DNA of 64,000 nucleotides, from contig NZ_CP041146.1 in NCBI RefSeq assembly GCF_006494775.1, forward strand, positions 4,154,001-4,218,000. Reading direction: 5' to 3'. Shown here one piece after another: positions 25,122-53,931 of the stretch. This DNA comes from Nocardioides humi. GTDB taxonomy: Bacteria; Actinomycetota; Actinomycetes; Propionibacteriales; Nocardioidaceae. Below the pieces are notes generated by a model. The model was not told the origin of the DNA and searched no databases. It saw only the letters and a program-made list of their open reading frames with translations. How positions within the stretch are numbered: the stretch's first letter is position 1; every line of letters begins with the position of its first letter. A program made the translations under genes and the position numbers.

Positions 25122-25369
25122 AACGAGGATCGGTGGTGGCGCGTCCACGGTCGAGTCGTGCGGAGGTGGCCCGGGCGGACCTGGGGGTTGGGCCGCCCGG
25201 GCCACCGCTCAGGGGCGGAGACGGTCCGCCGGGACCGGCGGGCTCCGCGGAGCAGGGCGGCGCCGCCGGCGAGCAGCAGGACGCCCGCCAGGCCGTGCCA
25301 CCAGTCCACGGCGGACCCGGTGGCGGGCAGGGCGCCGGGCTCCCCGGCCCCGCGCCCTGCCCGCCGGCA

Positions 25370-25401
<32 letters not shown>

Positions 25402-27754
25402 CCCGCCCGAGCCGCCCGAGCCGCCGGACCCGGGAGTGCCCGCCCCGGGATCGGTGGTCCCCGGGGTCCCCGTGCCCGGGGAGCCGGCGGTGGAGACGGT
25501 GAGCACGGCCGTGCCGGTCACCGTGTCGCCCGGTGCGGCGGCGAGCAGGGCGCCGAACCGGCCGGAGACGAGCCGCTCCCGCAGGCTCGGCCCGGGCACG
25601 ACGTACGACCCGGTGACGGTCAGCTCGCCGGCCTCGGCCGAGCCGCAGGCGTTCGCCGTGCAGGAGCCGGGCTCGGAGATGGAGAAGGTCGCGGCGCCGG
25701 TGAGGTCGCCGACCTCGTTGCCGTACTCGTCGAGCCCCGCGGCCGTGAACGCCTGGGTCTGCCCGGCGGTGATCGTGGCGGTCCCCGGGGCGAGGACGAC
25801 GCGGTCGACCGGCCCCGGCACCACGCTCAGCTGCGCGGTGGCGGACATCCCGGACCGGCTGCCCGTGATCGGGTACGACGCCGCGACGGTGCTCGTGCAC
25901 CGGTTGGCCGCGCAGGTGGCCCCCGCCGGCGCCGTGAACGTGGTCTCGTCGGTGACGTCGCCGATGAGGTTGTCGTACGCGTCGTAGGCCCGGGCGGTGA
26001 GGTCGGCGCTCTCGCCCGCGGCGATCGTCGAGACGGGCGGGTCGAGCGCGATGTGGTCGCTCGGGCCGGGGACCACGGTCAGGAAGCCGACCAGCGGCAG
26101 CCCGGAGCCGACATCCTCCCCGTTGACGGACCTGATCGTGACGACGTACATGCCGACCGTCGTCGACCCGCAGACCTGGCCCGTGCAGCTGGCCCCGGCG
26201 CTGGCTTCCAGCTCGAGGTCGACGGGCACCTGTGAGGGCTCCGCGAGATTGCCGTACCGGTCCATGACCCCCGGCGTGAAGGCCTGCGTCGTGCCGGCCT
26301 GGATGACGGCGTTGCCGGGGCGAGCCCGCTGACCGCCAGGTCACCGGGCGCCACCACCAGCGTGCTGGTCGCGGTGAGCCCGTCGAGGTGCGCGGTGACG
26401 GTGTGCTCGCCCGCGACGGTGGACGTGCACGTGTCGCCGGTGCAGCTCAGGGTGCGGGGGCCGTACGGCGAGCTCCAGCTGCCCGCCCCCTCGATCTCGA
26501 GCGTCGCCGCGTCGGTGGCCGTGCCGAGCGGGCGGTCGTCGGCGTCGTAGGCGTAGACCACGAAGGTCCCGGGCTCCCCGGCGGTCACGCTCGGCGCGGT
26601 CGCCTGGAGCTCGATCCGGGCAATGCCGTCGGTGGGCCGGGCGTCGGCGTGCACGTCCAGCCGTGCCGTGGCCCGGCGCCCGCCGGAGGTCGCGGTGACG
26701 GTGTAGGTCCCGGGTGTGGCCGAGGTGCAGGCGTTCGCCGTGCAGGTGCCGGGATCCTCGATCGTGTACGTCGCGGAGTCGGCCGGCGTCCGGTTGCCGA
26801 ACGCGTCGACGTCCTCGGCCTGGAAGGTCCGGGTCTCGCCGACGGTGACGGCCGCGCCGTCCGGCGAGATCGCGAACCCGGTCGGGGCGCCGGGGACGAC
26901 CCGGACCGCGGTGCCGGTGGCGAGCTGGTCGACCCGTGCGGTGATGAGGTGGTCGCCGGCCCGGGCCGTGGCGCAGCTGCCGCCGGGGCAGGGCGTCGGG
27001 GTCGCCGGACCCGCGTCGCCGCTGTCGCCCGGCCGGATCCACACGGCGGCCCGGTCCGTGACGTCGAGGGTGCGACCACCGGCGGTGTACCCGGTGAGGG
27101 TGACGACGATCGGCTCGCCGGCGGTGACGGTGGACTGCTGCACGCTGATGTCGATGCCGGTCAGGGCGAGGTTCTCCTCGACGACGGTCGGGGTCGCCGC
27201 GGCCGTCCGGGAGGGGTCGCCGGGCAGGGCCGCGGTGACGGTGTAGGTGCCCGTCGCGGTCGCCGAGCACTGGGCGCGGCCGGGTTCGCTGCCGGTGCAG
27301 TCGAGCCCGGCGTCGCTGGTGAAGTCGGCGTCGCCGGCCACGGTGAGCTGGTTGCCGTACGCGTCGACCAGGAGCGCGGTGAACAGCTGCTGCTGGCCCA
27401 CGCCCGCCGTCGCGCTCGCCGGGTTCAGTGAGACTCCCGCGGGCGCGCCGGGGCGGGAGCTCACGCCGGCGACGGCCGTGAACCCGCCCCACGTCACCTT
27501 GACGACGTGGTAGCCGGCGACGGTGGTCGTGCAGGCTCCCGCGGCGCACGACCCCCTGCCGCCCACGAACTCGAAGGCCGCCTCGCCGGTCACGTCGGCC
27601 AGGTGCGTGTCGGTGTCGTCGACGGTCCACACCGTGAAGGTCGCGGGATCGCCCACGGTGACCTCCGCGGCGGTCGGGGTGATCGCGATGCCGGCGGGCT
27701 CGACCGCCGCGGGGGCGGCCTCCGCGGCCCGGTCCTCCGGGAGCTCGGCGGGCT

Positions 27755-27900
27755 GTGGTGCGGGCTCGGGTGTGGGCTCGGGTGTGGGCTCGGGTGTGGG
27801 CTCGGGCGTGGGCTCGGGCGTGGGCTCGGGCGTGGGCTCGGGCTCCGGCGTGGGCTCCGCCTCCGGTTCCGGGGTCGGCTCGGGCTCCGCCTCCGACGGC
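27755..27900 (-). repeat. Proline-glutamate stalk repeats
   Basis: A 12-bp unit encoding Glu-Pro-Thr-Pro (CGGGTGTGGGCT on the plus strand) is repeated about eight times with drift. It codes for the extended stalk of the LPATG protein; such tracts vary in length between strains. Confidence 0.8.
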
Positions 27901-28031
27901 ACGTCCGTGGGCACGGCGGCGGGCGGGTCCTCGGGCGGGTCGTCGGCGACGGCCGGCGCCATGCCGGTGAGCAGCAGCAGGGCGGCCGCGCCGAGGGCGA
28001 CGGCGAGGGCCGGACGACGACGTGGGCGCAT

Positions 28032-28173: not shown

Positions 28174-30758
28174 TCACAGCAGGTCCAGCTCGATCGCCCG
28201 CTCGAGCACCGCCTTGCGCGACCGCACGCCGAGCTTGCGGTAGATCCGCTGGAGGTGGGTCTTGACCGTGTTCTCCGACAGGTGCATCGCGGCGGCCAGC
28301 TCGCTGCGGCTGGTGTGGTGCACGAGGGCCGCGAGCACCGCCCGCTCCTGGCGGGTCAGCGCGACGGCGGTGCGGGCGGCGACGAAGCAGGCGGGGACGG
28401 GAGCGGCGAGGTGCGCGCGGACCGCGGCGGTGCCCCGCTCGGCGGCGGTACGACGCAGCGCGGCGAGGTCCTCGGGCGGGAGGTACAGGAGGTGCAGCCG
28501 GGCGCCGTCGGCCCCGGCCTGGGCGAGGACCCGCTCCAGCAGTGCCGCCGCGGCCTCCTCCTGGCCGGTGCGCGCCGCGGCGGCGGCGCCGAGGACGAGC
28601 AGCGTGGCCAGGGACCGGGGCGTGTGCCCGGGACGCGCCTCCAGGTCGGGCAGCGCGGCCAGGGCGCCGGCGGCGTCACCGGCGAGCAGGCTGGCGAGCG
28701 CGGTCGCGGGAGCGAGCTGGGCGGCGTACCTCGTCCGCGAGCGCAGCAGCGTCGTCGCGCGGGCGCGGTCGCCGGTGGCGAGCCAGGCCGCGGCGAGCGC
28801 GCCGCGGACCGCCGCCGCGGCCACGCTGTCGCCCATCACCGGCGGTGCCGGACGGCGGCGGAGCTGCTCCTCGACCCGGCGGGCCTCGGCCGCGGCCGAT
28901 CCGAGGCCGACGTGCGCGTGCAGCAGCGTCCAGGTCAGCAGCGGCCAGAACTCCGTGGTGTCGCGGAAGGTGGTGTCGTCGAAGGCGGCCGCGGCACCGG
29001 CGAAGTCGAAGTCGTCGAGCCGCAGGACGGCGTCCCCGATCCGGCCCAGCGCGTTGGCGTAGGAGCGGTCCTCCCCGGGACGCCATGCGTCCGGCGCGAG
29101 GAGGGCCTGCGCCGATCGCGCCTCCACGGTCCGGCCCTCGACGGCGCCCAGCCCGACGGCGTACACGGCCGTGTGGTTGCGCACCACCGGGTCGGTCGCC
29201 ATCGCGACCGCCCGGGAGATGGTGGCGCGCGCCCCCGCCAGGTCGCCGGCCAGGAACTGGGAGTACCCGAGATGGCGCAGCGCCATCGGCCCCAGGAAGC
29301 TCAGCCGCTCGCGGTCGGCGTCGGGCATCCGGTCGTGGAACGCGAGCGCCTCCGCCGCGGCCCGGCCGGACTCGCCGACCCGGCCGAGGAGGCGCAGGCT
29401 GACGACCTTCGCGACGTGCCCGAGGAGGTACTCGCCGGCGGTCGGGTTCGGGAACCGGGGCCGGTTCCAGCGCGCGGAGATCTCGAAGTAGCCGGCGGCG
29501 GCGCCGCGCAGGGAGGGGTCGCGGAAGCAGGCGAGCCCGCGCCCGAAGGCGAGCGCGGGGAACTGGGTGAGCGCCTGGCTCGGGACGGAGGCGAGGTGGC
29601 GATCCACGAGGCTCGTGGAGTGGGCGTCCTGGGTGGTGACCACGACGGCGGCGTACACCCGGGCCGCGATGCCGAACAGGCCCGCCCCGACGGCCATCTC
29701 GAGCGCGGCCTCGTAGCTGCCGTGGCGGTGCAGCCACGCCGCGCTGAGCTCCGCGGCCCGCCGCTGCTCGGCGGGCGGGCGCAGTCGGGCCTCGGCGAGC
29801 ATCGCGTCGCGCAGCGACTCGACGTACTGGAAGACCTGATGGCCCGGCGCGAACGGGATCCAGCGCCCGAAGCCGTTCCACTCCAGCTCGTCGAGCATCT
29901 CCTTCACCTCGGCCGGCCCGGAGACCTGGTCGGACAGCTCCACCGCCAGATCGGCGTCGAGGTACGGCGGCACGCTGGTCGCGAGCACGAAGGAGTACGA
30001 CGCGCCGCGCTCGAGCTGGATGCGCAGGTCCTCGGCCACCAGCGCCTGCCAGGCGGGGTCGTGCCGGCCCGGGCCCGCGCGCGCCTGGTCCTCCTGGGAG
30101 CGGGCGAGCATCGCGGCCCGCAGTGCGAGCGGGTAGCCGTGGGTCGCCGCGTGCAGGCCGGGGGCCGCGTCCGTCGTACCGGGCGCGCCGAAGGCGGCCA
30201 CCAGGTCGCGGGTCTCCTCCAGGGTGAAGGCGAGGTCGTCCTCGGTCAGCAGCCGCACCTCGCCGCGCAGGCTCCGGGCGGGGCGGCCAGGCCGCCCGAG
30301 GTCCGGGTGGTGACGACGACGCGCAGCTGCGGGACGAGCCGGACCAGCTGCAGCAGGTCGGCGTCGACCTGCGCCGCCGCGGCCCGGACCTTCTCGTAGG
30401 CGTCGACGACGAGCAGCGGGCGGGTGCTGCCCGCCAGGCCGCGGGCGATCACCGCGGCCGGGTCGGGACTGGACTCGACCTCGGTCAGCAGGACCGGCGC
30501 CGGCGCCGGTCCGCCCATCATGCCGAGCCGTCCGGCGCCGGCCAGCACCGTGTGCCAGAAGGCCGACCGCGACTCGAGGTCGTTCTCCAGGGTCACCCAG
30601 ACGACGTCGGTGCCGTCGAGGGTCTCCACCCACGCCCGGGCCAGGCTGGTCTTGCCGAAGCCGCTCGGTGCGGCGAGCACGGTCAGCCGCGGCTCGGTCC
30701 GGTCGAGGATGTCGTGCAGCCGGGCACGCGGCAGGAGCACAGGACCCCCACCGGCCAT
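28174..30758 (-). CDS. LuxR-family STAND ATPase regulator (MalT/LAL type) 1, frame-disrupted
   Basis: This large regulator has an N-terminal P-loop (AAPSGFGKTSLARAW), a Walker B-like LLVVDAYEK, a long helical-repeat middle and a C-terminal LuxR DNA-binding domain (LTRQERAVLAAL to LSENTVKTHLQRIYRKLG). Such LAL proteins switch on nearby genes after binding ATP and an inducer. The P-loop part (30758-30290) and the rest are offset by one -1 step at a G/C run near 30271-30286. Restoring one base gives 861 residues, almost the same as its paralogue at 37980-40574 (864), which supports a single missing base. ATG 30758 follows GAGGAGG, 81 bases after the sortase-fusion gene. Confidence 0.85.
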
Positions 30759-30839: not shown

Positions 30840-33800
30840 TCAGTCGATCGGCACGGCGGTCACGACCAGGTTCTTGGTGTAGTGGAAGCGGCCGTTGCGG
30901 TAGGTCACCCTGCCTGTGCAGGTCACCAGGGTCAGCCGGTGCTCGCCCGTGGTCGAGACTGCGGCGCCCGCGAGACCCTTCGTCCGGGGCTGGACGGTGA
31001 TCGTGGTGATCCGGTAGCGCTGGCGGCTCCCGTCCCCGGTACGGACGGTGACGACCTGGCCGGGGCGGGCCTTGCGGAGCCTGCCGAACGCGCCGGGCCG
31101 GTCCCGACGGTCGGAGACGTGGCCGGCGATGACGGTGGCGCCGACCGCCTCGCCGGGTGCGGCGGAGCCGGCGAGCCAGCCGCCGCGGGTGATGTCGGCC
31201 GGGATCGTCATGGCGCCCCTGCGCAGGCCGACGGTCCGGACCTTCGCCTCGAGGCCGACCGCGGGGACGGTGAGCCGGACCGGGCGGATCCTGCGGCCGG
31301 CCACGGAGCCCTCGGCGCGTACGCCGCGGTATCCGGTGCTGACCTCGACCCGGCCGAGGCCGGGCCGGTGGACCAGGGTGGTCGAGGCCGGCCGGCCACA
31401 GGCGGTCGTCGCGGCGAGATTGCCCGCGTCGGCTCCCGTCGAGACCACCCAGGTGTAGTAGCCGGGCCGGGTGACGGTGACCGCCGGGACGGCGGTGCTG
31501 CCGTTGGCGGGGGTGAAGGGGACGGTGCCGACGGCGGTGGCCGGGGTGCACATGCCGGCGGAGGGCTTCCGGGCCGGGCCGTAGAGCGTGGCGGTCCCGG
31601 TCGTCGTACGACGGGCGTCGAGGCCGGTGATCGTGACCGTGCCGGACAGGGGGAGCGGCTTGGTGCGGCCGGTCCTGGTGACCGCGAGCGTGGCCAGGTC
31701 CGGTGCGGTCACCGAGATCGTCGGCGACGTCGCGGGGCCGGTCCGCGGAGTGACGGCGATCTGCACGGCGGCGTCGGCGCACTGCACGGGCGCAGAGACG
31801 TCGCAGACTCGCACCGTGTAGCTGTCGGTGCCGTGGAAGCCACCGGCCGGGGTGTAGGTGACTGCGCCGGACGCCGGGTCGACCGAGATCGCGCCGTGAG
31901 CGGGATCGGTCGCCGAGGTCACCCCGGTCGGGTCCAGCGCGGCGCCGGTCGCGGTGGCGAGATCGTGCAGCGCCGTGGTGACGGGCGTGTCCTGCGGCGT
32001 CTGCACGACCGCGCCCGTCGTGAACTGGTTCTGCACGGTCACGGTGACCGTCGCGATGCCGCACGCCGGGGTCGGGGTACTGGTGTCGCAGAGCTCGTAG
32101 TCGAAGGCGTCCTCACCGGAGAACCCGGCGTCGGGGGTGTAGGTGATGCCGTCGGTGCCGACGTCCGTCGTGCCGTGCGCGGGGCGATGACGACGGTCGG
32201 GTCGCCCAGTGCCTGGCCGGTCCCGGAGCTGTCGTTCGCCGCGACGTCGACGGTCACCGGGGTCGCGACGGTGGTCGCGCCGCTGTCGTCGCCGGCGGTC
32301 ACGGTGTTGGCGCCGACCATGACCGGGACGGTGACGTCGGCGCACTGCTGGGGCTCGGACGCGTCGCACAGGTTGAGTGCGTAGCTGTCCGGTCCGCTGT
32401 AGCCGGGCTCGGGGGTGTAGACGACTCGGATCGGCCGGTCCCACGGGACGTCGTAGATCGCGATGCTGCCGTGCTGCGGGCTGCCGACCGACCAGATGTG
32501 GTTCGGGTCGAGCGGGGCGCCGCTGGTGCTGGCAAGGCCGGCGAGCGGGGTCGTGACCGGTGTGTTCTGCGGGGTGGTCACACTGCCGGGCGTGAAGACG
32601 TTCTGGACGGTGACCTCGAGCCCGGCCGCGGCGCAGACGTTCGCCGGGTCCGCGTCGTCGGTGACGCGATAGCGGACGATGTCGCGGCCGGAGAACCCGT
32701 GATCGGGAACGTAGACGATCCGGCCGTCGGCGGCGACGGACGCGCCGCCGCCGATCGGGCTGCCGGTCAGGATCGGGAGCGACATGGCCGGGCTGGCCGG
32801 GACCTTGGCGTCATTGGCCCGTACGGCGCTGGACACGGGCGTCGACACAGGAGTGGACGCCGTGTCGTCGACAGCGGTGATGCTCACCCTGCGCAGGGTG
32901 ACGAGCTGGCGGGCGTCGACGTCGGTGACGAGAAGGTCGCCGGAGGCGGTGCTGGCCAACCAGGTCGGCGAGTTGGTGCCCCAGACCGCGATGGTCTCCT
33001 GGTCGTAGCCGGTGCCGTTCGGCACCAGGCGCAGCACCCGGTCGGCCTCGGAGTCGCCGACGATCAGGCTGCCGTCGGGCCGGACGGCGACGCCGTAGGG
33101 GTTGTCGAGGCCGAGTGCGACGATCGACGCCGTGTACGAGGAGCCGGACGGGCTGAGCCTCACGATCTTGTCCTCGTCGCCCCAGTCGGCCACGAAGACG
33201 TCGCCGTCCGCGTCGACGGCGAGTCCGCGCAGGCGCTCGTAGCCCGAGCCGACCAGCGAGGTCGTGTAGCCCGCACCGGCCGGCGTCAGCCTGTGCACGT
33301 GCCCGCTGGAGTTCTCGGCGAAGTAGACGTTGCCGTCGGCGTCCACGGCGATGCCGGAGGGGCGCTGCAGGCCGCTCGCGAGCACCGCGCGGGTGTAGGT
33401 CGAGCCGGTCCGGGTCAGCTTGACGACCTCGTGGTCGCCCTCGTCGGAGTAGTAGACGTTGCCGTCGGCATCCACCGCGATGCCCTGCGGGTCGATGCCG
33501 GTGGTGCCGTCGATCGTCGTCGGTCCGTCGTCGGGGTCCCAGCGGACGATCTGCCCGACGCTGCCGGAGACCCGTTCGTTCGCGAGGAAGGCGATGCCGT
33601 CCGCGTCCACGGCCACGCCGGTCGGCCGGTCCAGGCCGGCGACGGTGTGCTCGGTCCGGGAGACGTACGCCGAGGTGGGCAGCACGCCGCAGCCGGCGTC
33701 GGCGGTCACGGTGACGGTGACCGTGGCGATCCCGCACACGCGAGCCGGGGACTCGCCGTCACGGACCTGGTAGCTGTAGGTGTCGGTGCCGTGCCAGCCG

Positions 33801-35971
33801 GCGTTGGGGGTGTAGGTGATGGTGCCGTCGGCGTTGACGGTCGTCGTACCGTGCGCGGGCGCGCTGATCACGGTCGGGACACCCAGCCGGACGTTGGCGA
33901 GGTCGTTGGCGCGGACATCGGTGGTCACCGGCCGCGGCGACGTCGTGGTGGCGGTGTCGGCGGTGGTCTGCAGCGTCGTGGGGCCGAATGTCCAGAGGCT
34001 CTCGAAGCCGTCGGCGACGAGGAGCGCGTCGTCGTCGGTGATCACGATGGTCCTGGCGTACTCCTCGCCCCAGGGCGCGTAGAGCTGCTTGGCGGCGTAG
34101 CCGGCGCCGGACGGGGCGGCTGTCCACACGCCGGGGTCCTCGGAGGTGCTGACCCAGATCGTGCCGGTGCTGTCGACGGCGACGCCCTGGCCGCTGCCGA
34201 GGCCGGTGACGGCGTTCGTCTGGGTCCAGTCGGAGCCGTTGTCGACGAGCTTCACGACCCGGGCGTAGCTGGCCAGGTAGACCGCGCCGGCGTCGTCGAC
34301 GCTCACCTGGTGCACGAACTGGAAGCCGGTTGCCACGAGCGTGGGTGCATAGCCGGACGCCTTGGCCATCCGGACCACGCTGCCGGCGCTGGACGAGGTG
34401 GCGTGGGTGCTGACGAAGACGTCACCGTCGGGAGCCACGTCGATGCCGCCGACGTTGACGAGGAGCGGGTCGGTGTAGGTGTCGGCGATCGTGTAGGTGG
34501 CCCCCGAGGGAGTGAGCCTGAGCACCTCGTTCGGATAGCGCACGACCCACAGGTCGCCGTTGGCGTTGGAGTCGTCGACCGCGATGGAGGTCACGTTGCC
34601 CACACCGGCGGCGACGACCGAGCGGTCGTAGCCCGACGCCGACGGGGTCAGCCTGACGATCTGCCCCTCCTCGGAGTCGGTCACGAGGATGCTGCCGTCG
34701 GCGTCCACGTCGAAGTTCTGTGGGTAGTCGGTGCCGGTCTCGATCGGCAGCGCGGTGTCGGCGCCGCTGGTGCCGAGCGGGTCGCAGGCGTTGCCCTGGG
34801 TGACGGTGACGGTGACCTTCGCGGTCGCGCAGACGTTGGCCGGGTCGGCGTCGTCGCGGACGGCGTAGGAGTAGCTGTCGGTGCCGGAGAAGCCGGCGTC
34901 GGGGGTGTAGGTGATGGTGCCGTCGGCGTTGACCGTCGCGGTGCCGTGCCTCGGGTTCTTCGCGACGGTCGGGGCCGCGAGGTCGGCGCCGGTGGCCGTG
35001 TCGTTGTCGCGGACGTCGGTGGTGACGGCGTTGCCGAGTGTCGTGCTCGAGGTGTCGGCCTGCGCCGTGACCGAGAGCGACGTCAGCATCACCACCCGGT
35101 TGTTGCCGGTGTCGGCGACGTAGATGTTGCCCTCGGCGTCGACAGCGACGTCCTGGGGTTGGTCGAGGCCCTCGGTCGGCAGGGTCCTCTGGTCCTCGAT
35201 CGCGCCTCCCACCCGCACCAGCCGGTCGTTGCCGGTGTCGGCCACGACGATGGGCGCCGTGGCGTGGGTCGGGTCGAGGTCGAGCCCGCCCGGGCCGGAC
35301 AGCCCGCTCGTCGGGAGCGGAGTGCCCTGGGTGTTGCCCGGGATGTTCAGGCTGCGCACCGTGTCGCCCATCGTGAAGAACAGCGTGCTGCCGACCACGG
35401 AGATGCCGCGTACCTGGGTCGGCAGCGGGAGCGAGTCGATCCCGGAGGGGGTGTAGCCGCTGCCGCCCGGTGTCAGCTTGACGATCCGCTGGTTGGGCAG
35501 GTCACCGGCGTAGACCGTGCCCGAGGGGTCGACCTCCAGCCCCGCCAAGCCGCCGCCGAAGCCCCAGGCCACGTTCTCCTGGGTGTAGCTGCCACCCGAC
35601 GGGATCAGCCGCTCCACCTTGCCGTTCGGCCCGTCCGTCACATAGATCGAGCCGTCGGGCCCCACCGCGACGCCGTACGGAGAGAAGGACCCGCCCGCGG
35701 AGCTCTGGGTGTAGGTGTCGCCCGACGGCGTCAGCTTGTCGATCTGCCCGCCGTTGCCGACGTAGACCACGCCGTCGGCGTCGACATCGATGCCGCGGGG
35801 CGTGTCCAGGCCGGTGGCGATGGTCGACTGACGATAGCCGGACGCCTCCAGGGTGTCGCAGCCCACCGTCGCCGCCTGCGCGATGGGTGAGAGCGTCGCA
35901 GTGGCGCCGGTGATCACCAGCGCGCCGCTGACGGCGAGCGCTGCGGAGAGCACGATCCGGGGGAGCTTCAT
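30840..35971 (-). CDS. Giant exported NHL-propeller/Ig-repeat protein with C-terminal class F-type sortase domain, frame-disrupted
   Basis: The two frames join into a protein of about 1,710 residues. After a signal peptide (about 1-33) come three modules, each an NHL propeller (DxPxGVAVDADGNVY repeats) followed by an Ig/cadherin-like domain (ITYTPDAGFSGTDSYSY). More Ig-like domains follow, then a C-terminal sortase of about 150 residues. The sortase shows MTIPADITRGGW, VIAGHVSD (catalytic His, 31119-31121), AFGRLRKARPGQ, LVTCTG (catalytic Cys, 30918-30920) and an Arg in RNGRFHYTKN. Class F sortases are normally small proteins with an N-terminal helix, so this arrangement is unusual. The -1 break is at 32179-32185, between Ig domains. 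GAGGA precedes ATG 35971. Confidence 0.8.
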
Positions 35972-50518: not shown

Positions 50519-51021
50519 GCGAACGGGTTCGGCAGTGCGCCGGGGAGCTTCGCGAGGAGCTCCCGGGCCTGCGCGGCCACCTTGTGCTCGACGAGCACCT
50601 CGTAGCGCGTGGCGACGACCGAGCTGACCGAGGAGAAGTCCCGCTGGCCGCGGGTGACGGCGTACCCGGCCAGCGCGAAGACGACGCCGAAGGCGACGCC
50701 CATCAGCGCGGTGGACACGATGATCGCGAGGGTGTCGCCGGTGCCGAAGAAGCTGAACAGGATGCCGACGAACAGGCCGAACCACAGCCCGCTCATCGCG
50801 CCACCGGCCGCGACCCGGCCGCTGCTCAGTCGGCCAGTGATCCGCTCGACCTGCTTGAGGTCGGTGCCGACGATCATGCAGTTCTGCACGGGGAAGCCCT
50901 CGTCGGAGAGGAAGTCGACGGTGCGCTGCGCGGTGGCGTAGTCGTCGTAGACCGCCAGGGACTGGGGGAACTCGAGCGCCAGCAGGGAACGGGAGAACGC
51001 GCCGGGGGTGGGGTTGCTCAT
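50515..51021 (-). CDS. General stress protein (YflT/GSP17M-like domain) with membrane segment
   Basis: The 168-residue protein has an N-terminal YflT-type general-stress domain (LAVYDDYATAQRTVDFLSDE to NCMIVGTDLKQVERIT). A glycine-rich double membrane segment follows (GAMSGLWFGLFVGILFSFFG, STALMGVAFGVVFALAGY), then a C-terminal soluble tail. Proteins of this layout are common in Actinobacteria but their role is unclear. It starts at an ATG overlapping the upstream stop (ATGA) and ends in a GTGA overlap with the GNAT gene, so it is translated in the copper operon. Its presence there may couple the operon to stress. Confidence 0.82.
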   Translation of the reverse strand: MSNPTPGAFSRSLLALEFPQSLAVYDDYATAQRTVDFLSDEGFPVQNCMIVGTDLKQVERITGRLSSGRVAAGGAMSGLWFGLFVGILFSFFGTGDTLAIIVSTALMGVAFGVVFALAGYAVTRGQRDFSSVSSVVATRYEVLVEHKVAAQARELLAKLPGALPNPFA

Positions 51022-51599
51022 GGGTCCAGTGTGCCCCGCGCCCGGCGGGAGCGGCGGACGACGGCCAGGACCGCGAGCCCCGGGAGCAGGACGACGGCCA
51101 GCGCGAGGGCGAGCGGCCCCGCGCCGCCGGGCTGCGCCGTGGCGGGCAGCGGGCGCGCGCTCGGGTCGACGGTGGCGGCGGTGGCGGTGAAGCGCGGCGC
51201 CGGGTGCTCGTCGCCCTCCGCCTCGTCGGCCCAGTCGACCCTGGTGCCGTCGGCGCAGGTCTGCTCCGCCGGCACCAGCACCGTGTCGCCCGGCTCCGCG
51301 TCGAGGCGGACGGTGACGGTGAACCGCGCCGGCTCCGCCGCGGCGATCCCCGGTCCCTCCCACTCGACCCGGCCGTCGACCACGCGGTGGCTCCAGCGCC
51401 GCGGGTCGCCGACCGCGACGACCGCCGCTCCCGTGGGCATCGTCGCGGACAGCGCGGTCGTCCCGGCGTCCCCGCACCCGCCCGACAGGGAGAGCACCAG
51501 GTCGGCGCTGCCGTCCCCGCGCGGCACGACGGACGCGATCTCCACGGCCGCCGCCGGAGCCGCGAGCTGGAGCAGGACCAGGAGTGCTGCCAGCCTCAT
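51018..51599 (-). CDS. YcnI-like exported protein with LPATA sorting-like signal
   Basis: This 193-residue protein has a signal peptide (MRLAALLVLLQLAAPAAA), a YcnI/DUF1775-like beta domain with two cysteines (SLSGGCGDAGTT and VPAEQTCADGTR) and a C-terminal LPATA motif. A membrane helix (PLALALAVVLLPGLAVLAVV) and RRSRRAR follow, so it is either a sortase substrate with a non-standard LPxTA site or a simple membrane-anchored protein. It lacks the N-terminal His of typical YcnI copper chaperones. It starts in an ATGA overlap with the CopC-CopD gene, so it belongs to the copper operon. Confidence 0.72.
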   Translation of the reverse strand: MRLAALLVLLQLAAPAAAVEIASVVPRGDGSADLVLSLSGGCGDAGTTALSATMPTGAAVVAVGDPRRWSHRVVDGRVEWEGPGIAAAEPARFTVTVRLDAEPGDTVLVPAEQTCADGTRVDWADEAEGDEHPAPRFTATAATVDPSARPLPATAQPGGAGPLALALAVVLLPGLAVLAVVRRSRRARGTLDP

Positions 51600-53230
51600 G
51601 GGACCTCGATCCTTCCGGTGACGACGGGCTGGGCGAAGCGGCTCAGCGGTACGGCGAGCGAGACCTCCCACGTCCCCGGCAGCGCCAGGTCGACGGTGGC
51701 CTCCCACACCCCGGACGCCGTGGGCGAGACCGGCCGGCGCAGCGGTCCGACATCGGCCTCCGGGAGCCGGAAGGACAGCGCCGGGACGTCGTCGAGCCCG
51801 ACCACGGCGCCCTCGGCGTCGGTGACCGTGACCCGGACGCCGTTCACGCCGCGCCGCACGGGCGCCACGACCACGGTGGCGCGGTGCGCGTCGCCCAGGG
51901 CGAGCTCGAGCCGCTGCTCGGCCGGCGCGGCCGCGGCGGCACGGGGAGCGCGGGCGGGCGGCGTGAGGTTGACGAGGACGGCGGTGACGGCGACGACGGC
52001 CGCCACGACGAGGGCCTCGGCCCCGATGGTCCGTCGGAGCATGGTCGCCGCGCGAGCGGCGTCCCGGCCCGCAGCCCGGTCCACGAGCCGGAGGCGGTTC
52101 CACGCGGCCAGCGCGAGCACCGGCAGGAGGAGGGCCGACTTGAGCAGCACCGCCCGCCCGTACGACGTGTCCCACAGGCCGCTGAGCGAGTGGCCGATCC
52201 GCCAGTAGAGGACCCCGCCCGCCACGACGAGCGCGGCGACCACGACGACCGCTGCCCCCGAGAAGCGCGCGAGGAGCTCCGCGCGTACGCCGACCCGCAG
52301 CCCGGGACGCGCGGCCAGCGCCAGGACCAGGGCGACCAGGCCGCCCCACCAGAAGGCGGCCGCGGCCAGGTGGACCAGCTCCGCGGGCAGCACCACCCAC
52401 GACGGGCCGTAGCTGCGGGTGTGCCCCACGACCGCCAGCGCCGCCAGCGCGGCGGCCGCGCCGCCCACCGCCAGCGCGTCCCGGCCCCGCCGGATGCCCA
52501 GGACGGCCGCGGCGGCGCCCACGGCGACCAGCAGGGCACCCGCACCGCTCGCGCTGCGCACCGCCGCGGTCCAGGTGTCGCCGGACAGGACCGCGCCCAG
52601 CGACCGGCCGGACTCCCACAGCGCCGTCAGCGGCGCCAGGAGCACCGCGCCGCCGGCCGCCAGGCCCGCGAACACCAGCGCCGCGCGCCGCCAGGCGAGG
52701 ACGAGTCCCGCGTGACGGCGTACGCCGGCCGGCGCGACCAGGACGACGACGCCCGCCAGCCCGGCGAGCCCCAGCGTGCCGGCGTACTGCATCCCGTTCG
52801 CGATCGCCTGGGCGAGGCGCACCTCGCGCTCCTCGGTCCCGACCGGGAGGTCGAGCACCGTCGCCGACGGTGCGCCGACCGAGAACGTGAAGCTGCCCGC
52901 CACCGGGTGCGAGTCCGTCGACACGACGCGCCAGGTCACGACCTGGGTCCCCCGCCCGAGGGGCTGCCGCGGCTCGATGGTGAGGACGTGGTCGCGCACC
53001 GAGAAGTCGGCAGGCACCTCCTCGCCGGCGGCCGTCAGCAGCCGGTTGCCCTCCGGGGCGAGCGAGACCGGCTCGTCGAAGGTGACGGTCAGCGACGCCG
53101 GTGCCTCCGCGAGGACCTGTCCGTCGGCCGGGGTGGTCCCGACCGTCCGGGCGTGGGCCGCGGCGGCCTGCGGCCAGAGGACCAGCACCAGGACGACGCC
53201 GGCCAGCAGTGCGCGCGCGGAGCCCGTCAA
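51596..53230 (-). CDS. CopC-CopD fusion copper resistance protein
   Basis: The 544-residue protein joins an exported CopC domain (signal peptide, then AHARTVGTTPADGQVL with the N-terminal copper-binding His, ending GSFTFSVGAP) to a CopD membrane domain. CopD has about eight helices (ALLAGVVLVLVLW, GTLGLAGLAGVVVLVA, YGPSWVVLPAELVHLAAAAFWWG and more) and an outer C-terminal beta domain. CopD proteins move copper across the membrane or buffer it. The TTG start at 53230 overlaps the YcnI stop (TTGA). The copper-binding His is adjacent to the predicted cleavage site, as expected. Confidence 0.9.
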   Translation of the reverse strand: MTGSARALLAGVVLVLVLWPQAAAAHARTVGTTPADGQVLAEAPASLTVTFDEPVSLAPEGNRLLTAAGEEVPADFSVRDHVLTIEPRQPLGRGTQVVTWRVVSTDSHPVAGSFTFSVGAPSATVLDLPVGTEEREVRLAQAIANGMQYAGTLGLAGLAGVVVLVAPAGVRRHAGLVLAWRRAALVFAGLAAGGAVLLAPLTALWESGRSLGAVLSGDTWTAAVRSASGAGALLVAVGAAAAVLGIRRGRDALAVGGAAAALAALAVVGHTRSYGPSWVVLPAELVHLAAAAFWWGGLVALVLALAARPGLRVGVRAELLARFSGAAVVVVAALVVAGGVLYWRIGHSLSGLWDTSYGRAVLLKSALLLPVLALAAWNRLRLVDRAAGRDAARAATMLRRTIGAEALVVAAVVAVTAVLVNLTPPARAPRAAAAAPAEQRLELALGDAHRATVVVAPVRRGVNGVRVTVTDAEGAVVGLDDVPALSFRLPEADVGPLRRPVSPTASGVWEATVDLALPGTWEVSLAVPLSRFAQPVVTGRIEVP

Positions 53231-53931
53231 CGACGCGACCGGGCCAGCGCGGTGCCGCCGGCGGCGAGGCCGAGAGCGCCGAGGACCAGGCCCAGCCAGG
53301 CGACGACGCCGGTCCCGCCGTCGCCCTCGCCCTCGATCTCGGCCTCGGCCGTCCGGTGTCCGTGCGCGTCGCTCGCGGCGGCCCCGACGGTGACGTACGG
53401 CGCGGGATGCTCCGGCTCCTCCTCGCCCTCCGCGGCGGTCTGCACCCAGGCGCTCTCCCCCTCCTCGCAGCTCTGCACGACGGGGAAGACCAGGGTGGCG
53501 CCCTCGTCCGCGGTCAGCTTCAGCGAGAGCTCGAAGGTGTCCCGGAGACCGTCGGGGAGCGGGCTCCTGGCCGTGTAGACCACCTGGGCGACGCGCTCGG
53601 TGTACTCGCCGCCGTGGCCGTCGGCGACCGGCTCGGCGAGCTCCTCCATCCTCTTCTCCACCTGCCAGCCGGGGTTGACCGTCGGCGTGACCGTGACGAT
53701 CTCCGGGGGCAGCTGCACCGTGACCGCTGTCGTCGGCGACCCGTCGCAGCCGTGGCCGACGGAGAAGGTGAGGACGGCGTACGCGCCGGCGGCGGTCGTG
53801 GACGGGGTGACGGTCACGTGCGCCCCGGCGGGGGGAGCGGCGGTGGCCAGGACGGCGACCGCGCCGAGGGCGACGGCGGCCAGACGGGCAGCGGGACGGG
53901 CAGCAGGGCGTGCGGACGTACGGACGGACAT
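53227..53931 (-). CDS. YcnI-family (DUF1775) copper chaperone
   Basis: The 234-residue protein has a signal peptide ending AGA and a mature N-terminus HVTVTPSTTAAG, whose first His is the copper ligand in YcnI, with the partner Trp in NPGWQVEK. The domain ends with a disulphide-like pair (GHGCDGSP and QSCEEGESAW). A Glu/Gly-rich linker with a His-rich patch (DAHGHRT) leads to a C-terminal membrane helix (VVAWLGLVLGALGLAAGG) and basic end. It should pass copper to CopC-CopD, whose TTG start overlaps its stop. It begins 55 bases after a small membrane protein gene. Confidence 0.9.
   Translation of the reverse strand: MSVRTSARPAARPAARLAAVALGAVAVLATAAPPAGAHVTVTPSTTAAGAYAVLTFSVGHGCDGSPTTAVTVQLPPEIVTVTPTVNPGWQVEKRMEELAEPVADGHGGEYTERVAQVVYTARSPLPDGLRDTFELSLKLTADEGATLVFPVVQSCEEGESAWVQTAAEGEEEPEHPAPYVTVGAAASDAHGHRTAEAEIEGEGDGGTGVVAWLGLVLGALGLAAGGTALARSRR

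Follow-up and report, generated by a model that had tools for sequence, protein, structure and literature searches.

Introduction

Sortases normally stand alone and attach proteins to the cell wall. Class C sortases are stand-alone and membrane-bound, and class F sortases are small stand-alone proteins with an N-terminal membrane anchor. The gene described here departs from that pattern. It lies on the minus strand at positions 30,840–35,971 of a 64,000-nucleotide stretch of the Nocardioides humi genome (assembly GCF_006494775.1, contig NZ_CP041146.1, positions 4,154,001 to 4,218,000), which we call the window and from whose first letter we count; it comprises about 1,710 codons in two frames of the assembly. 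Judged by its sequence, the gene is one of a family of exported modular surface proteins, found in the Nocardioides/Pimelobacter group, with a class F-like sortase as their C-terminal domain; the enzyme family is known, and this architecture of it is new.

Several described systems resemble the fused gene in part. SrtE of Actinoplanes missouriensis (AMIS_500, 792 residues, sortase at 575–775) also carries its sortase near the C-terminus of a longer protein, but it is of class E, and the accessible text of the report does not describe stalk repeats in it (PMC13251363). The same text states the physiological roles of class F sortases to be unknown in 2026 and gives no phenotypic change upon deletion of all four class F sortases of A. 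missouriensis. Like LPXTG fibrillar adhesins, the fused proteins are long and have a signal peptide and Ig/SdrD_B/DUF11-type repeats; unlike them, they lack the LPXTG-helix-basic tail and have a sortase in its place. According to the accessible part of PMC9210967, an anchor was found in only about half of the training adhesins. Among the open-access papers listed by the searches, judged by title and the start of the abstract, none was found to describe a natural protein with a sortase fused to its C-terminus as in the window gene. The database proteins carry automatic names ("sortase domain-bontaining protein," "Ig-like domain-containing protein"), which show that fused proteins are present in databases, not that anyone has studied them.

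Results

The gene is made up of two open reading frames (ORFs), whose parts were profile-searched separately, each in its own frame. ORF A (35,971–32,039, minus strand, as are all features of the gene; 1,310 residues) begins with a predicted signal peptide whose last residues are AQA (35,873–35,971; from the sequence and a hydrophobicity scan) and continues with NHL-propeller and Big_9/cadherin-like immunoglobulin (Ig) modules at 32,186–35,872 (Pfam NHL, 2.6e-32; Big_9, 2.1e-37; Vgb_lyase, 4.7e-27; also Cadherin_5). ORF B, which ends at 30,840, holds additional Big_9 domains in two stretches (31,623–32,179), a constant Ig-like module (GTATLYGP ... TTLVHRP; 31,362–31,622) present in 18 of the 19 rows of alignment A3, the linker motif VSTGYRG (31,323–31,343) and, as the final domain of the protein, the class F-like sortase (30,843–31,289), which matches PF04203 at 5.8e-18 and 65.3 bits against a curated cut-off of 26.6. 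The predicted catalytic His codon (31,119–31,121) and Cys codon (30,918–30,920) stand exactly where the original prediction, made from the sequence alone, had placed them, and ORFs and Pfam bear out the frames, signal peptide, NHL/Ig modules, and C-terminal sortase that it described.

That prediction had also noted the lack of an obvious anchor, and no C-terminal anchor is visible by motif and hydrophobicity scans. In a 19-residue Kyte-Doolittle scan of both parts, the N-terminus is the sole hydrophobic stretch, and no LPXTG/LAXTG motif occurs in either part. Compared with fibrillar adhesins, the protein is long (about 1,710 residues) and has stalk repeats of the Big_9/cadherin-like kind but not the C-terminal anchor; its NHL propellers are a candidate adhesive domain only.

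Between ORF A and ORF B the register shifts by one, at about 32,185–32,180. The predicted fusion of about 1,710 residues is thus two frames in the assembled sequence rather than one ORF, yet it is the likely reading of the locus because relatives run uninterrupted. Open frames of relatives are unbroken at 1,902 (G195) and 1,890 residues (G161), with 78% identity over the last 260 residues, and intact database proteins are found at 1,622 (P0002, Nocardioides sp. L-11A), 1,628 (P0003), 1,899 (P0004), and 1,704 residues (P0014, Pimelobacter simplex). A stop setting the sortase apart as its own gene, which would have spoken against fusion, was not seen: in all 24 fused relatives read to the end, the sortase closes a long open frame, with the module ending 1–10 residues ahead of the stop codon. 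These 24 genes were chosen for large open frames and include the locus L008; a 25th row was cut by the locus boundary. A stand-alone sortase gene was rejected, as relatives carry sortase and stalk in one frame.

The next two genes of the window are also frame-broken, and so is the essential replicative polymerase gene dnaE of the same genome, which lies in two frames near its 5' end (L163, about 4192–4114; G000:C1 near 251,650). A break in an essential gene suggests that indel errors are scattered through the assembly; two long housekeeping genes were tested, and the other, rpoC, is whole. A paralogue at L008 in the same genome is broken too, further upstream in the gene. Constraint past the break is at least equal to that ahead of it: the proportions of nonsynonymous and synonymous differences (pN/pS) relative to L056 are 0.223/0.389 after the break and 0.243/0.305 before it, with similar results for L057 and L058, and identity to L056 is 78.6% in the sortase versus 63.6% ahead of the break. 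The comparison with relatives suggests that this is probably a functional gene that an assembly error has split at 32,180–32,185. A home-made codon model for frame breaks made 19 calls in 119 kilobases (kb) of the genome's own coding sequence versus 24 in 345 kb of controls, counts that are noisy (overlapping genes were apparently flagged, the known L008 break was missed, and the control loci had themselves served to train the codon table) and were not relied on alone.

A search for NHL-Ig-sortase fusions, suggested along with the original prediction, found that the architecture is not confined to the window gene and recurs as a module within the Nocardioides group. Within the N. humi genome, PF04203 matches at six places and the class F model at seven, all of the latter below cut-off. 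The shared module lies inside large open frames at four places, namely the window gene, 3,847,560, 2,395,724, and 2,403,115, with the window gene and 2,395,724 frame-broken. Across 196 genomes of the same genus, the 260-residue end is matched in 170, stand-alone sortases included, and at least 44 genomes have open frames (not gene calls) of at least 700 residues with a module match. Of 64 matching loci from a named collection, 32 (L096–L127) have the domain in an open frame of 532–2,428 residues, and their hosts are Nocardioides, Pimelobacter, two Nocardioidaceae bins, and one Janibacter indicus (L112). By a crude hydrophobicity rule, a signal-like start is present in 30 of these 32 (not L110 and L113) and a C-terminal hydrophobic stretch in none, with an internal stretch in L104 and L125. 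The other 32 loci are mostly small stand-alone enzymes, Kribbella above all.

Among the matches listed from 296 genomes of the class, the module is covered from its start only in the family to which the window belongs. When six long open frames were checked by codon-position G+C, L190, from another genus of the same family, and L192, from the same genus, looked coding throughout; supposed fusions in other families (L187, L188, L189, and L191) were rejected as stand-alone sortases within spurious frames.

Other forms of the fusion were seen as well. The frame at L192:4356-7175 is a second fused type of about 900 residues in which Pfam recognises the sortase only, and matches of similar size occur in at least about 15 of the 196 same-genus genomes. 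L056 and L057 (Nocardioides sp. L-11A and LHD-245) each carry a tandem pair of fused sortase genes, with about 5.5 kb between the two. The Janibacter indicus copy (about 680 residues) lies outside the Nocardioides family, in the Intrasporangiaceae, and horizontal transfer is possible.

The end of the L-11A relative, used as a query, found 48 giant proteins. PF04203 is among the precomputed domains of 44 of them; P0045, P0047, and P0048 also end in a sortase, and P0049 does not. The His is 90–97 residues from the C-terminal end in 46 of the 47 sortase-ending proteins, and P0041 ends likewise, with GHI. NHL is found in 14 of the giant proteins, the others having mainly DUF7507/DUF11/GEVED or SdrD_B. 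Because domain content varies and the sortase end does not, the N-terminal part appears to be exchanged while the C-terminal Ig-like module, linker, and sortase are kept constant. Units similar to that Ig-like module stand in tandem in P0049, whose tail consists of LPRTG, a hydrophobic stretch, and basic residues (Arg); by this comparison, the sortase of the fused family seems to occupy the place of the sorting signal in P0049. The linker pattern [TGA]G[FY]x[GTS] is found 68–76 residues ahead of the His in 41 of the 47 sortase-ending proteins. Since the motif has no Leu-Pro, and its Thr is replaced by Ala or Gly in some members so that only the Gly is near-constant, it may as likely be a structural turn, a lid, or a pseudo-substrate as a cleavage site.

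The predicted class F assignment holds in part. Like class F sortases (NF033748; SrtF of Corynebacterium diphtheriae, 5uus), which are common in actinobacteria, the window sortase has the His, the Cys, and the fold, and NF033748 is its best NCBIfam sortase-class model. The score of 83.5 bits is nevertheless well under the cut-off of 166, the other fused proteins (63–89 bits) all fall under it too, and the domain is fused to the C-terminus of a giant exported protein rather than being a small stand-alone enzyme. Stand-alone controls fall on both sides of the cut-off, with P0102 (211.6) and L084 (170.6) passing and P0060, P0065, and P0079 (117–120) failing. In a tree without other sortase classes, 36 fused rows form one, mostly separate, set together with six rows labelled stand-alone, and the basal forks have Shimodaira-Hasegawa-like approximate likelihood ratio test (SH-aLRT) values of 50 and 80; two of the rows labelled stand-alone seem to be fragments, namely P0050, with 174 residues on a contig of 593 bases, and P0052, with 122 residues. 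We therefore describe the window sortase, on sequence grounds, as class F-like rather than as a clear class F member.

Structure prediction, which had been proposed as a check, returned a confident model with a sortase fold and its beta-barrel. The linker is poorly modelled in it (predicted local distance difference test, pLDDT, <50 at model residues 12–24). An earlier model from the 19 rows of A3 was poor (pLDDT 62.3) and was left out of the fold comparison. The top structural match, class C pilin sortase SrtC1 of Actinomyces oris (2xwg), has a Z of 17.6 at about 20% identity, the alignments extend into the linker, and SrtF (5uus) is also among the matches; because rows within 1 Z are tied, class C membership was not read from the top score. 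Sequence searches of the PDB gave weak sortase matches only (E 0.05 for the single sequence and 0.0014 for the A3 profile).

Alignment A4 (99 rows, 30 fused and 69 other) has the His in 99 rows and the Cys in 98, and both are kept in all 30 fused rows. At the position aligned with the catalytic Arg (strand beta 8; register uncertain), the window protein has Thr; Arg occurs there in 8 of the 30 fused rows and 34 of the 69 others, and the Asn two residues past it is kept in 24 and 60, respectively. Loss of the Arg as a trait special to the fused group was dropped, since many stand-alone relatives are without it too. The fused relative L072:4226-9424, which is outside A4, is a natural dead copy with Gln in place of the catalytic His and Lys in place of the Cys.

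Neighbouring genes were compared in 23 loci, four of them (two overlapping) from the genome of the window. Directly downstream of the fused gene is a LuxR-family ATPase regulator (28,174–30,758, minus strand), with its AAA and GerE parts in different frames and a break near 30,280; the family is present in 12 of the 23 loci and directly downstream of the fused gene in seven. It is followed by the gene for an Ig-repeat surface protein (25,226–28,031, minus strand), a candidate partner with an LPATG-helix-Arg tail at 25,330–25,226. Frame-broken in the window, this gene is in one open frame in L056, L057, L058, and L061, and these five loci, all with an NHL-type gene, are where its family occurs. 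A small LPDTG protein is encoded just upstream in two DUF7507-type loci, L007 and L066.

Discussion

The reading we favour, to which we give an even chance, is that the fused protein is a stalk-displayed active transpeptidase at the wall that acts on LPXTG-type partners. The original prediction had allowed for action on the protein itself or on partners at the surface. Computation establishes the architecture and its recurrence, the fold, the kept His and Cys, and an LPXTG gene close by; catalysis, substrate, and the place where the protein stays we infer. The sortase would sit on the protein's stalk at the cell wall, and its Cys would attack partners at their LPXTG-type signal, the LPATG protein encoded two genes downstream being one example; the cleaved partner would pass to a wall or stalk amine. 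Several points weigh against this proposal. The window protein has Thr at the position aligned with the catalytic Arg, a fused copy (L072) is without His and Cys, and once its signal peptide is cleaved the protein would be soluble and need some way to stay near the membrane. The LPATG gene is also absent from the fetched 20 kb in four of nine NHL-type loci (L059, L060, L062, and L064), so the partnership is not obligatory.

A less probable course of events is self-anchoring in cis, in which the sortase replaces the LPXTG tail, cuts its own linker ([TAG]G[YF]), comes free, and joins the N-terminal stalk to the wall, enzyme and substrate being one chain. In all 24 genes the module takes the C-terminal place that a sorting signal would have; P0049 has its similar Ig-like units followed by an LPRTG-helix-Arg tail; the linker motif keeps a near-fixed distance from the His in 41 of 47 proteins; and the window protein shows no other anchor. 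Engineered fusions, as given in the accessible part of PMC2901362, self-cleave with enzyme and substrate on one chain, but they are artificial and have an N-terminal sortase and an LPETG linker. The window-type motif, by contrast, is without Leu-Pro and conserves little beyond a Gly, as a turn in the structure might; the model of the linker is poor, and LPXTG partners are close by in several loci. If cis anchoring occurs, the fused proteins would be a natural counterpart of those engineered fusions and could explain some adhesin-like proteins without a recognised anchor, a gap noted in the accessible text of PMC9210967. It is quite unlikely that the sortase fold serves as a cap, for binding or for structure, and catalyses little or nothing. 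The unkept canonical Arg and the dead L072 copy would suit such a role, but His and Cys are retained in all 30 aligned fused rows, and conservation relative to L056 is higher in the sortase (78.6% identity) than ahead of the break (63.6%).

We also find it very unlikely that the gene is truly broken in this strain, with the NHL/Ig protein cut short and the sortase left as a silent remnant, or is read by a programmed frameshift. The assembly as given does require a frame change, the L008 paralogue is broken too, and the intact rpoC indicates that the assembly is not wrong everywhere. Against this, frame breaks also occur in the two genes after this one and in the essential dnaE, and constraint continues past the break; programmed frameshifting was rejected, as no slippery heptamer was seen at the break when the site was read by eye. 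The notion that a GC-rich spurious frame resembles a sortase by chance is already refuted by the results: long spurious frames are common at this G+C, and the four around sortases in other families are examples, but a Pfam match at 5.8e-18, relatives at 78% identity, and a confident predicted fold do not fit with chance.

The fused family poses a testable question on what class F-type sortases do. Class F-like enzymes are here tied covalently to identifiable stalks, often beside LPXTG genes, and testable substrates can thereby be named.

Related anchoring features were noted in passing. At 51,021–53,513 on the minus strand of the window is a frame with LPATA, a hydrophobic stretch, and an Arg-rich tail; its whole-frame codon-position G+C is not gene-like, and it is possibly another frame-broken wall-anchored protein. 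Among the stand-alone class F-like sortases, the N-termini of L128, L130, L131, L132, L134, L136, L138, and L141 (mostly Kribbella) resemble lipoprotein signals ending in GC, which look like lipid rather than helix anchoring.

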